A stretch of DNA of 64,000 nucleotides from NCBI GenBank assembly GCA_028875055.1, contig JAPPGG010000049.1, forward strand, positions 1 through 64,000, read 5' to 3'. Each line of letters starts with the position of its first letter. Position 1 is the stretch's first letter. The notes below the pieces were generated by a model. The model did not search any database. It was not told the DNA's origin and was given only the letters and a program-made list of their open reading frames with translations. Both the position numbers and the translations under genes were made by a program. This DNA is from Chloroflexota bacterium. Its GTDB lineage: Bacteria; Chloroflexota; Dehalococcoidia; Lucifugimonadales; UBA3495. Of the stretch, positions 6,328 to 48,100 are shown piece by piece.

Positions 6328-6984
6328 ATGCGGTGCCCCTACTGTGGTTTCTCCGATTCCCGGGTTACGGACTCGAGAAACGTGCAAAACGGCATTCGGC
6401 GCCGCCGGGAGTGCCTGGAATGCCTGCGCCGGTTTACCACCTATGAGCGCATCCATTCCAACGCGGTAATGGTGACCAAGCGGGATAACCGCCGCGAGGA
6501 ATTTGACCGGGAAAAACTTGCCGGAGGCATTCGCAAGGCGTGCGCCAAGCGACCGGTTCCGGCCCACGCTATCGAGAGACTGGTAGAGGAGATAGAGGGA
6601 GAACTTCAGGGGCAGGGTGAGGTGGCCGCCAGCCAGATCGGCGAGGTGGTGATGGAACAACTGAAGAACCTGGACCGGGTGGCTTACATCAGGTATGCCA
6701 GCGTTTACCGGGATTTTCAGGATATCGAGAGTTTCGAAGAGGTCGTCAAGGACTTGCGCGAGGGGGGCGGTACCCAGCTCACCCTTCCGCACATACAACC
6801 GGGACCCAGCAGGCAACGCCGAGGCAGGGCCAGGTCCAGGGGCCGGCAGGAACGGGAAACCGCCGCCACCGACTCCGGACCGGATGCAGGGGAGTTGGGA
6901 TTGGGGCAGATACCAGAGCCCCAGGGCGACGCAGAAACGGGAGAGCTGACCGATCAGGGACCCGGACCGATGGGAGAAGAATAA
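6328..6984 (+). CDS. nrdR: Transcriptional repressor NrdR with long C-terminal tail
   Basis: NrdR represses ribonucleotide reductase genes in response to ATP/dATP. The 218-aa protein starts with the zinc ribbon MRCPYCGFSDSRVTDSR...ECLECLRRFTTYER (four Cys) and continues with the ATP-cone domain (about residues 47-140). The family is usually 150-160 aa. Here about 60 extra residues follow, rich in Arg, Gly and Pro (SRQRRGRARSRGRQERE) and ending acidic, and probably disordered. AAGGA lies just before the ATG. nrdJ, its expected target, is 1.4 kb downstream on the same strand. Confidence 0.93.
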   Translation: MRCPYCGFSDSRVTDSRNVQNGIRRRRECLECLRRFTTYERIHSNAVMVTKRDNRREEFDREKLAGGIRKACAKRPVPAHAIERLVEEIEGELQGQGEVAASQIGEVVMEQLKNLDRVAYIRYASVYRDFQDIESFEEVVKDLREGGGTQLTLPHIQPGPSRQRRGRARSRGRQERETAATDSGPDAGELGLGQIPEPQGDAETGELTDQGPGPMGEE

Positions 6985-24929: not shown

Positions 24930-25589
24930 CTACTCGCTGGACTCGGCGGAATCCCCGGACTCACCCTCCGGACTGACGCCGAGAATTTCGTCCACCAGGC
25001 CGTATTCCACCGCCTGTTCGGGAGTGAGATAGTAGTCCCGGTCGCTGTCCTGGGCAATGCGTTCGTAGGTCTGCCCGGTATTGTTGGAAAGGATGGTGCG
25101 CAGGCGGTCCTGCAGGCGAAGGATTTCCCGGGCCGCGATTTCAATGTCGCTGGCCTGACCCTGGGCGCCGCCGAGGGCCTGGTGCATGTGGACGGTGGAA
25201 TTAGGCAGGCAATAGCGCTTGCCCTTGGCGCCTCCCGACAGCAGGACCGTGGCCATGCTGGCCGCCATGCCGACACAGACGGTGGACACCTCGGGAGAGA
25301 TCATCTGCATAGTGTCGTAGATGGCCAGGCCGGCGCTGATGACGCCGCCCGGGCTGTTGATGTAGATGCTGACTCCCCGGTCGGGGTCTTCCCGTTCCAG
25401 GTAGAGCAGCTGGGCGATTATGGTGTTGGCAACCGGGTCGGCAATGGGGGTTCCGAGGAAGATAATCCGTTCCCGCAGCAGCAAGGAGTAAATGTCGAAA
25501 GCCCGCTCACCCCGGGGGCTGGTCTCAATGACCATGGGAATAATGCTCTGGGGGACCGCCAGGGATGATTCGTAGGGATTGTACAGCAT
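24930..25589 (-). CDS. clpP: ATP-dependent Clp protease proteolytic subunit ClpP
   Basis: ClpP forms the barrel-shaped serine peptidase. The 219-aa product has [26 protein letters not shown], the catalytic Ser in [17 protein letters not shown], the catalytic His in [19 protein letters not shown], and the Asp in [22 protein letters not shown] place the start at ATG 25589 because AAGGAG (25599-25604) is 9 nt before it. An ATG 18 nt upstream would overlap the tig stop. The C-terminus has a short acidic tail. Confidence 0.95.
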
Positions 25590-25593
25590 GGGG

Positions 25594-27042
25594 TTATGCT
25601 CCTTCATTACTCTCTTCCGATTCCGGCTGGTCTTGCTGGCCGGTCGGGTTCTCCTGTTCAGCCTGGGGCGCTTCAGCTTCGGCAGCGGCTTCCGGCTGGG
25701 ACTCCGATTCCGATTCGTCGGCTTCGGCCTGTTCTTCGGCGTCCGCGGCGGCTCCCGGTTCCAGGCCCTGCACTATTTCCACGAGGCGATTCATTACCTT
25801 CTGGTTCATAAGCGAGGAGCGAATGGACTCAGTCATGCTCTCGGAGTAAAGGGTGCGGCGCATGGCTGCCTGATTCTCGTCGGTGGCGCCGGCCACCATG
25901 GTTTCGATTTCTTCCTGGATTTCCTCGGTGGAGACCTCCAGCTCTTCCTCCTGGGCCAGACGGCGGACCACCAGCATGCGGTTTAGGCGGTCGGCAGCCA
26001 GGGGGCGGAGTTCCTCTTGGAACTCTTCCTCGGTCTTGCCCACGTAGGCGAGATAGGTGTCCATATCGAGGCGCTGGTTGCGCAGCATCCGTTCCCGTTC
26101 TTCCTGCATATTGTCGATTTCCCGTTCCAGCAGCAGGTCGGAGGCGGTAATGGTGGCGCTCTCCAGCAGTGAATTCATGCTCTGTTCCTGGAAGGCGTAA
26201 TTGGACTGGGCTTCAGCCTCGCTGGTTACCCGCTCCAGGATGTGGGCCCTCAGGGCCTCCATGTCGTCGAACCCCTCGCCCACGCCCTTGGCGAACTCGT
26301 CGTCCAGGTCGGCCAGGGCCTTCTCCTTAACAGAAAGGACGTCCACCTTAAAGGCGACGTCCTTGCCGGCGTATTCGGGTCTCGGGTAATCTTCGGGAAC
26401 TGTTATGGTGAAGTCCTTGTGCTCACCCTCTTCCATTCCCTCCAGGAAGGCGGCGAAACCGGGGAAGGGCAGCACATTGGAAGTCTCGGGAATGTAGTCA
26501 ATCTCCTGGTCGTTGACCAGCACTTCCCCGTCCATTTCACCTTCAACGTTCAGGTTCAGCAGGTCGCCGAACGCAACCGGTCGGGTAACCGGCTCCCACG
26601 GGGCCATGTCGCGTCGAATCCGCTCCAGGACCTGATCAACCTCTTCATCGGAAATTTCGACCGGTTCCTTTTCCAGGCGGACACTGTAGAAGTCGCCCAG
26701 GTCCACCGTGGGTTCCAGGGGAACGGTGGCCTTGAAGGAGACGGGTTCCAGCTCGGTAACCTCCACGCGAGGCTCGACGAAGGCCTGGATCTCCTCGTCC
26801 TGGAGGGCCTGGTTGAGAGTTTCGGGAATCATGAAGTCCAGGGCTTCCTGGACCAGGGCGACGCGCCCCACGTAGCTTTCGACAATGGAGCGGGGGGCTT
26901 TGCCCTTGCGGAATCCGGGAATGTTCAGTCGGCCAACAGTGCGACGGTAGGAGCGGTCAATAAACGGGTCTTCGTCCGTTGCGTCCATTTCAACATTGAG
27001 GATAACTTCAACGGGGGTGGACGATTCCTTTGTAACTTTCAC
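25594..27042 (-). CDS. tig: Trigger factor
   Basis: Trigger factor is the ribosome-bound chaperone and prolyl isomerase. The 482-aa product has the N-terminal ribosome-binding signature ([16 protein letters not shown]), a central FKBP-like domain ([30 protein letters not shown]), and a helical C-terminal chaperone domain. An unusually long acidic, low-complexity tail (about 55 residues of Glu, Ala, Ser, Gln) follows. GTG 27042 has GGAGAG 7 nt upstream and fits the promoter at 27113-27121; the open frame continues upstream of that promoter. The stop is 4 nt before the clpP start. Confidence 0.94.
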
Positions 27043-46285: not shown

Positions 46286-47512
46286 ATGAAAGTCTCCTTC
46301 TTCCATTTGATGCCCTATCAGCATTTGCCCCAGGACTTTGAGTCGAAGCACCACAGCGCATGGGTGGACCTGCCTAACGAGAACTTCGACCCCGAACTGG
46401 GTCAGCAGCACTACACCGACTACCTGGAAGAGCTGCAATTCGCCGACAAAATGGGCTTTGACGGGGTGTGCGTCAACGAGCATCACAACAACGCCTACGG
46501 CATAATGCCCTCGCCCAATCTGATTGCCTCGGTCCTTTCCCGCTCCACCTCCCGGGCCGCCCTGGTGGTGCTGGGCAACAGCCTGGCCCTGTACCAACCG
46601 CCGCTGCGGGTGGCCGAAGAGATGGCCATGCTGGACCTGATGAGCGGCGGTCGCCTGGTTGCCGGCTTCCCCGTGGGCACCTCCATGGACACCACCTTTT
46701 CCTACGGCCAGGTTCCGGTGACCTTGCGGGAGAAGCACACCGAGGCCCACGACCTGATTATGAAAGCCTGGTCGGAGCGGGAGCCCTTCATCTTCAACGG
46801 CAAGTACAACAAACTGCGGTACGTCAGCATCTGGCCCCGACCCCTGCAGCAGCCCCACCCGCCGGTGTGGATCCCCGGCAGCGGCAGCCTGGAGACCTGG
46901 GACTGGGTCCTGGACCGGGACTACGTTTATTGCTACCTGAGCTACTTTGGCTACCTGCGGGGCAAGCGGGTGGTGGATGGGTTCTGGCATCGAGTGGCCG
47001 AGCGGGGCGTTGACGACAACCCGTACCGGCTTGGCTTCCTGCAACTGATCTGCGTTTCCGAGACCGACGAGTCGGCCAAGGAGGAGTACCAGGACCACGT
47101 CAAGTATTTCTATCAGAAGATGCTGCGCATTCACGCTCCCTTTGCGGAGGCCCCGGGCTACCGCTCTATCGCGTCGGTACGGGAGTCGGTGCGGCCCCAG
47201 ATTGGCGAGGAGGCGCAGAAGGCGGCAGGGGAACTGGAGTGGGAGGACTTCGTTGAGCAGGGCCACGTGATAGCCGGCAGCGCGGAAACCGTCCGACGGA
47301 AGCTCACAGAAGCCATTGAAATGCTGCGGGTGGGACACCTGATGTGCCTGCTCCACATCGGGACGATGCCCAAAGAACTGACCCTGAAGAACACGGAACT
47401 CTTCGCCAAAGAGGTAATGCCTTACATCAAGGACATCTGGAGCGATTACGAAGACCCCTGGTGGCCCGAGGGCGTGGCCCAGGATGCGGTGCCCGCAGCC
47501 GCCGACGATTAA
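46286..47512 (+). CDS. LLM class flavin-dependent oxidoreductase
   Basis: This 408-aa luciferase-like monooxygenase has a TIM barrel that binds FMN or F420: GFDGVCVNEHHNNAYG, LGNSLALYQPPLRVAEEMAMLDLMSGGR, FPVGTSMD and PVWIPGSGS. The substrate is unknown. GAGAG lies just before ATG 46286. The selenoprotein candidate follows after 31 bp, so they are probably cotranscribed. A peroxide-reducing partner would suit a flavin oxygenase (inference). Confidence 0.88.
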   Translation: MKVSFFHLMPYQHLPQDFESKHHSAWVDLPNENFDPELGQQHYTDYLEELQFADKMGFDGVCVNEHHNNAYGIMPSPNLIASVLSRSTSRAALVVLGNSLALYQPPLRVAEEMAMLDLMSGGRLVAGFPVGTSMDTTFSYGQVPVTLREKHTEAHDLIMKAWSEREPFIFNGKYNKLRYVSIWPRPLQQPHPPVWIPGSGSLETWDWVLDRDYVYCYLSYFGYLRGKRVVDGFWHRVAERGVDDNPYRLGFLQLICVSETDESAKEEYQDHVKYFYQKMLRIHAPFAEAPGYRSIASVRESVRPQIGEEAQKAAGELEWEDFVEQGHVIAGSAETVRRKLTEAIEMLRVGHLMCLLHIGTMPKELTLKNTELFAKEVMPYIKDIWSDYEDPWWPEGVAQDAVPAAADD

Positions 47513-47543
47513 AGCCAAGGCAAACCCCAAAGGAGGCAAAGCC

Positions 47544-48044
47544 ATGGACAAACTGCAACAGGGAGACCGGTTTCCGTCAATGACGTTTAATACCGTGGAC
47601 GGCCAGCAGATTCGCATACCCGAGGACATGACCGGCCGATACGCGGCGGTGCTGTTCTACCGGGGCCACTGGTGACCCTACTGCATGCGGCAGTTGGCCG
47701 CGTGGGAAGAGAAGAAGGCCGAACTGGAGGGACTGGAAGCCTCCATTTACGCCGTAAGCACCGACAACTTGGAGCAGGCCACCGAGGTGGCGGGCAAGGG
47801 CCTGAGCTTCCCCGTCGCGTACGGGGCCACCAAAGAGGACGGCGACAAGATCGGCGCCTGGTGGTCGGAGGACCACGACGGCTACATACAGCCATCGGAG
47901 TTTCTGCTGGGTCGGGGCGGGGTGGTGCTGGGCGCCATGTACGCCTCCGGGCCGGTGGGGCGCATGGGAGCCGACGAGGCAGTGCGGGCCATCACCAACC
48001 GGGAGCGGCGTCGGCTGGAGCAGGAATCCCAGCAAGGCAGCTGA
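47544..48044 (+). CDS. Selenocysteine-containing peroxiredoxin/thioredoxin-like protein (candidate)
   Basis: Read through one in-frame TGA (47673-47675), the frame encodes 166 residues of an AhpC/TSA-like thioredoxin fold. The usual motif YRGxWCPYC appears as FYRGHW-U-PYC, with U at residue 44 and the second Cys at 47. AAAGGAGG precedes ATG 47544, and the reading frame is intact and protein-like on both sides. An 8-bp stem with an AGTTG loop lies 16 nt after TGA. TGA is a normal stop in other genes here (proC, yggT, tatD), so general recoding is excluded. The alternatives are a nonsense mutation or sequencing error. Selenocysteine would make this a thiol peroxidase or disulfide reductase. No selA, selB, selC or selD is in the window. 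A terminator follows at 48074. Confidence 0.8.
47684..47704 (+). promoter_or_regulatory. Putative bacterial SECIS element
   Basis: CATGCGGC (47684-47691) pairs with GCCGCGTG (47697-47704) through 8 bp with one U-G pair, around the loop AGTTG (47692-47696). The apical loop begins 16 nt after TGA and has a G within its first two bases, as in bacterial SECIS elements bound by SelB. Confidence 0.7.
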
Positions 48045-48073: not shown

Positions 48074-48100
48074 AAGCCCCCGGCAATTGCCCGGGGGCTT
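48074..48100 (+). terminator. Hairpin terminator after the selenoprotein candidate
   Basis: AAGCCCCCGG (48074-48083) pairs perfectly with CCGGGGGCTT (48091-48100). The tail is only TT, so it may be a moderate terminator. Confidence 0.65.

Follow-up and report, generated by a model that had tools for sequence, protein, structure and literature searches.

A probable UxxC selenoprotein gene of peroxiredoxin fold, with an in-frame UGA and a SECIS hairpin, in a Chloroflexota genome

A single TGA interrupts a gene for a peroxiredoxin-like protein

A gene with a stop codon in its middle may be broken, or it may encode a complete protein in which this codon is read as selenocysteine (Sec). We asked which of the two applies to one gene in the window, that is the whole stretch of 64,000 nucleotides that was analysed. 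By combining the sequence with a read-through translation, we found an open frame from 47544 to 48041 followed by a TGA stop (48042-48044), with another TGA (47673-47675) as the sole interruption. This internal triplet takes the position of the first Cys in a CxxC-type motif, YRGHW-U-PYC (residue U44), and the second Cys, C47, is retained. A first, sequence-only reading had described exactly this, a continuous frame broken at the first Cys with the second one kept, together with a strong Shine-Dalgarno sequence; both observations are confirmed (Table 1). The read-through protein matched the Pfam families AhpC-TSA (E 1.2e-16) and Redoxin (E 3.1e-12) over residues 5-129, with 61.2 bits for PF00578 (cut-off 26), and no signal peptide was seen in the 166-residue product. 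Taking all the observations below together, we consider it about 90% probable that the locus is a complete selenoprotein gene of the UxxC redox type, a figure that excludes the choice between two possible chemistries.

Downstream (3') of the gene, a strong G+C hairpin, AAGCCCCCGG ... CCGGGGGCTT, was noticed by eye at window positions 48074-48100. It could be the transcription terminator of the gene.

Table 1. Features at and around the locus (window positions) and further candidates of the same genome
Feature	Position	Strand	Basis and remarks
Luciferase-like (LLM) flavin monooxygenase gene	46286..47512	+	Pfam Bac_luciferase E 1.3e-33; 31-nt gap to selenoprotein gene; possible operon partner
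Shine-Dalgarno AAGGAGG	47530..47536	+	7 nt ahead of ATG; directly visible in sequence
Putative selenoprotein gene, 166 codons + stop TGA, AhpC/TSA-family UxxC redox protein	47544..48044	+	Read-through translation; Pfam AhpC-TSA E 1.2e-16; 86 distinct same-TGA homologues
Predicted UGA codon for selenocysteine, U44 of YRGHWUPYC	47673..47675	+	Sequence; Cys (TGC/TGT) at matching column in 10 homologues
Putative bacterial SECIS hairpin, 8-bp stem 47684-47691 with 47697-47704, apical loop AGTTG 47692-47696	47684..47704	+	Fold, covariation, conservation, absence from Cys forms, criteria of PMC13188914
Candidate selenoprotein loci elsewhere in the genome: L177, L178, L182, L183, L185, L186, L001, L002, L022			

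The genome encodes the selenocysteine machinery

The host genome is a 3.75 Mb draft (98% complete, 75 contigs). We searched it for selA, selB, selC and selD and found all four. selC was detected by ARAGORN as a tRNA-SeC with anticodon tca and by Rfam RF01852 with 67.5 bits, while selB scored 345 bits (cut-off 242), selA 542 bits and selD 385 bits, the latter with an in-frame TGA of its own (CAG-U). On contig C71 of genome G000, the minus strand carries the tRNA-Sec gene and, some 50 nt away, a thioredoxin gene that has no in-frame stop (25495-25587 and 25636-25935).

The TGA is conserved in homologues that keep an intact frame

With a threshold of E 0.001, 106 of 147 related genomes had a homologue, and about 60 carried one with TGA at the U44 codon. 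From the tables we compiled by hand a list of 62 Sec-form genomes: selA was above cut-off in 56 of them, and the remaining six are drafts of 67-88% completeness. Another 80 loci came from scanning named genomes. Almost all of them belong to Dehalococcoidia, SAR202 or unspecified Chloroflexi assemblies, and a few to Alphaproteobacteria. Over all sets, the codon in the U44 column is TGA in 86 distinct sequences, TGC or TGT in ten, and TCA in one. Identity among the TGA homologues falls to about 35%, and their frames are intact before and after the codon; relatives are not truncated at the same place. In nearly all copies the U44 codon is the only TGA within the domain, the exception being a frame-shifted copy (L091). 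A UxxU motif was considered for the copies listed with two TGAs and rejected, as the second TGA either terminates the gene normally or falls beyond the domain.

The TCA (Ser) codon belongs to the second copy of locus L158, at about locus position 6667, where the tandem neighbour keeps TGA. This copy may be an altered paralogue or contain a base error.

In the tree, five Cys forms make up one clade nested within the Sec forms. Two of these five genomes still have selA. Loss of the machinery therefore does not by itself explain why Sec gave way to Cys, and we rejected a strict coupling between the two. Four alphaproteobacterial Sec forms (L164, L165, L167 and L168) likewise group as one clade inside the Chloroflexota set. 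Their genomes contain a full selA in three cases and a contig-end fragment in the fourth, and the stem of the L168 hairpin is compensated (CCGTC-AGTTG-GACGG). Their nesting and the selA genes in the same genomes make horizontal transfer, and not contamination alone, the likely origin of these forms. A search of plasmids returned only distant matches, below 36% identity.

A covarying hairpin follows the UGA

The sequence-only reading had also pointed to a SECIS-like hairpin after the TGA, with an 8-bp stem starting 9 nt and a loop AGTTG starting 16 nt downstream. We recovered all these values. According to the published bSECIS model, the upper stem has 4-16 bp and the loop 3-9 nt with a G within its first two positions, at 16-37 nt from the UGA and with a minimum free energy of at most -7.5 kcal/mol (PMC13188914). 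The hairpin agrees with each of these rules (8 bp, 5-nt loop with G as second nucleotide, 16 nt, -13.1 kcal/mol). Folded alone, it had a z-score of -3.85 and none of 200 shuffles was equally stable; folded with its flanks, z was only about -2, so folding energy by itself is moderate evidence.

We then compared the stem with shuffles and with slid partners in 40 distinct sequences. Pairing occurred in 80.6% of cells against 70.2% in shuffles and at most 40% for slid partners. The covariation score was 0.291, compared with 0.131 after shuffling and no more than 0.089 after sliding the partners. The covariation test counted 37 doubly changed paired cells, and pair 15-29 alone occurs as GC in 19, UA in 8 and CG in 7 sequences. 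On the whole alignment RNAalifold predicts the three innermost pairs only, so that the outer stem rests on the test of the named structure, and the stems of several relatives have one or more mismatches. The hairpin signal above chance therefore lies in conservation and covariation rather than in energy. Codon choice in the loop is also constrained: 64 of 65 genes use TTG or TTA for the loop Leu, whereas these two account for 184 of the 981 Leu codons in the rest of the same genes, and the Gln codon before the loop Leu is always CAG. Judging from these counts, the hairpin confines the loop leucine to codons that are otherwise rare (TTG/TTA). In the Cys homologues both stem and loop are lost, and the fold of one of them (L142) shows no such hairpin. 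Together, agreement with the published rules, covariation and loss in the Cys forms support the idea that the hairpin acts as a SECIS element.

These data bear on two ways of reading the locus without selenium. If the TGA were a real stop, the gene would be a pseudogene, or the triplet a TGC misread in sequencing or assembly; in-frame stops do usually signal decay, and the window comes from a draft in 75 contigs. However, decay or a base error hardly fits an identical TGA shared by 86 distinct homologues, some only about 35% identical, in which the flanking frames are intact and the hairpin is conserved and covaries, and we rejected this explanation as next to impossible. A TGA reassigned genome-wide, or read through by a near-cognate tRNA as Cys or Trp, would still give a full-length protein, and the Cys homologues show that Cys works at U44. 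Yet TGA ends 17 of the 42 long ORFs in the window, so the genetic code is not altered, and we discarded that variant. Moreover, reassignment or read-through leaves aside the complete Sec machinery, tRNA-Sec included, and the fact that the hairpin is confined to genes with TGA at this codon; we consider it very improbable. Selenocysteine insertion at UGA 47673 is instead predicted with near certainty from the machinery, the conserved UGA and the SECIS covariation. The claim of a genuine selenoenzyme is thus supported by the sel genes, by the homologues with TGA (86) or Cys (ten) at U44 and by the covarying hairpin.

The active site departs from that of canonical peroxiredoxins

An AlphaFold2 model of the protein (pLDDT 93.5; 31-row alignment, with Cys modelled for Sec) has a peroxiredoxin fold of the BCP/AhpE type (best Z 20), with BcpB as a match (5epf, Z 20.2 over 151 residues, 2.5 A). 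ResA-type structures also match the model (4nmu, TM 0.83 on target). When aligned by HMMER to the peroxiredoxin 6q5v, U44 takes the place of the active-site Thr and P117 that of the catalytic Arg; C47 coincides with the peroxidatic Cys. Hence the canonical PxxxT/SxxC motif and catalytic Arg are replaced by R40, U44, C47 and P117, and only the Cys is kept. P117 is invariant among homologues and stands, by sequence position only, where the cis-Pro of ResA/TlpA is expected. Since the window protein stays below the cut-off of every NCBIfam model, its function is deduced solely from fold and motif.

Given that the canonical peroxiredoxin residues are absent and that U44 and C47 resemble a thioredoxin CxxC, we infer a selenenylsulfide chemistry. 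SelB and selenocysteyl-tRNA would read UGA 47673 as selenocysteine with the hairpin 9 nt downstream as SECIS, and the identical triplet at 48042 would act as an ordinary stop and end the protein. The product would be a 166-residue redox enzyme of peroxiredoxin fold and of the "Prx-like UxxC" selenoprotein type. Its U44 selenolate would attack a disulfide or a peroxide, C47 would resolve the intermediate into a U44-C47 selenenylsulfide, and thioredoxin or another thiol would then reduce it. From these residue positions, we moderately favour thioredoxin-like thiol:disulfide exchange as the main activity; that the protein works mainly as a peroxidase (a selenol peroxidase) is the less probable, yet tenable, choice.

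One specific form of the latter is a true peroxidase, a Sec peroxiredoxin that mainly removes peroxide, for instance from the adjacent flavin monooxygenase. The fold is that of a peroxiredoxin, and the LLM gene ends 31 nt upstream on the same strand, with an orthologue (71-94% identity) upstream in two genera. Against this, the Pro, Thr and Arg of canonical peroxiredoxins are replaced, and an LLM gene is found upstream in only 17 of the 80 named loci (an orthologous one in about 14), often with an intervening gene. We therefore consider a true peroxidase rather unlikely.

A possible association with the upstream monooxygenase is seen mainly in two genera

The sequence-only reading had proposed a pairing between the selenoprotein and the upstream flavin monooxygenase. 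The counts just given refer to LLM genes on the same strand within the fetched flanks, and in most of the 80 named loci no LLM gene was seen within these flanks. About 14 of the 17 upstream LLM proteins share 71-94% identity with that of the window and three share 32-36%. As far as locus correspondence shows, the loci with the orthologous LLM come from the genus of the window and one other genus of the family, and in many of the 17 another gene intervenes. By clustering neighbour ORFs, we found the LLM family of the window in 14 loci besides the window itself. Neighbours in other relatives include HpaB-type hydroxylases, a maleylpyruvate-isomerase-like protein and an MFS-type transporter, which was recognised by eye. 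The proposed pairing is thus weakly supported: an operon with LLM is conserved in part of the loci only, and a dedicated partnership of the LLM and Sec enzymes in the two genera only is possible from gene order.

LLM monooxygenases are proposed to oxidise recalcitrant organic matter in Dehalococcoidia/SAR202. A broader scenario, in which the Sec enzyme would be a dedicated redox partner of these monooxygenases in Dehalococcoidia/SAR202 and would make ocean carbon oxidation by these bacteria selenium-dependent, appears improbable.

The protein fits a known kind of selenoprotein by domain and motif

A 2008 survey of the GOS marine metagenomes listed 225 sequences as "Prx-like 1, pfam00578, UxxC" (PMC2398784), and a 2026 review includes a "Prx-like thiol:disulfide oxidoreductase, PF00578, UxxC/UxxU" among its high-confidence predictions (PMC13188914). 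Our protein has a PF00578 match and both UxxC (UPYC) and CxxC (CPYC) homologues. It shares with Prx-like 1 the PF00578 domain, the UxxC motif type, the marine bacteria and the known Cys homologues, and its domain and motif are those of this kind. As judged from the published descriptions, the group of the window differs from Prx-like 1 by its signature YRGxW-U-PYC...IQPxEF...MYASGPVGRM and by being mostly from Dehalococcoidia/SAR202; Chloroflexota are not mentioned in the text of either paper (PMC2398784, PMC13188914).

Other known systems are less close. Sec peroxiredoxins (Prx, TxxU) share the fold and a Sec at the redox active site, but there Sec replaces the peroxidatic Cys, which our protein retains, its own Sec standing in the place of the Thr. 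The likeness to ResA/TlpA (CxxC, cis-Pro) concerns the place of the CxxC-type motif, the similar fold and, by position in the sequence, the invariant Pro, which precedes the strand that faces the motif in ResA. Unlike these proteins, the window protein has no visible signal peptide, carries Sec for the first Cys and is overall closer to BCP/AhpE-type peroxiredoxins. The SelL-related family NF040769 is also thioredoxin-fold and Prx-like, and 26 of 31 members match it weakly, but the window protein scores 21.6 bits (cut-off 120) and its motif is UxxC. The SelL motif is UxxU.

In its category the biology is already known, and the chief question is what the enzyme reduces. Annotation easily misses or splits such a gene, which here represents a large and mostly uncultured group, since the Sec form occurs in about 60 of the 147 related genomes. 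Because one family contains Sec, Cys and Ser forms, it also offers a natural series for testing the benefit of selenium to the enzyme. In the searched library, no paper treated selenoproteins together with SAR202; the single pertinent paper that names both SAR202 and selenocysteine notes SelA and SelB in sponge symbiont bins of various phyla (PMC5649159). The selenium dependence of SAR202, an abundant marine lineage, looks under-described.

Further candidate selenoproteins

No convincing second selenoprotein gene was found within the window. Elsewhere in its genome, sampled by family searches only, we found about nine further candidates with an in-frame TGA at redox positions (Table 1): two TxxU peroxiredoxins (L177 and L178), two UxxC ResA/TlpA-like proteins, two TUINC/CUINC thioredoxin-like proteins, two glutaredoxin-like proteins and SelD. 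An in-frame TGA also occurs in one of 17 carboxymuconolactone-decarboxylase-type matches (genome G000 contig C68: 115055-115279, minus). In relatives, lipoprotein-like UxxC genes stand in tandem, three in a row in L092 and two each in L093 and L095. Finally, L094 has a single read-through frame with two UTYC domains, possibly a double-Sec protein.
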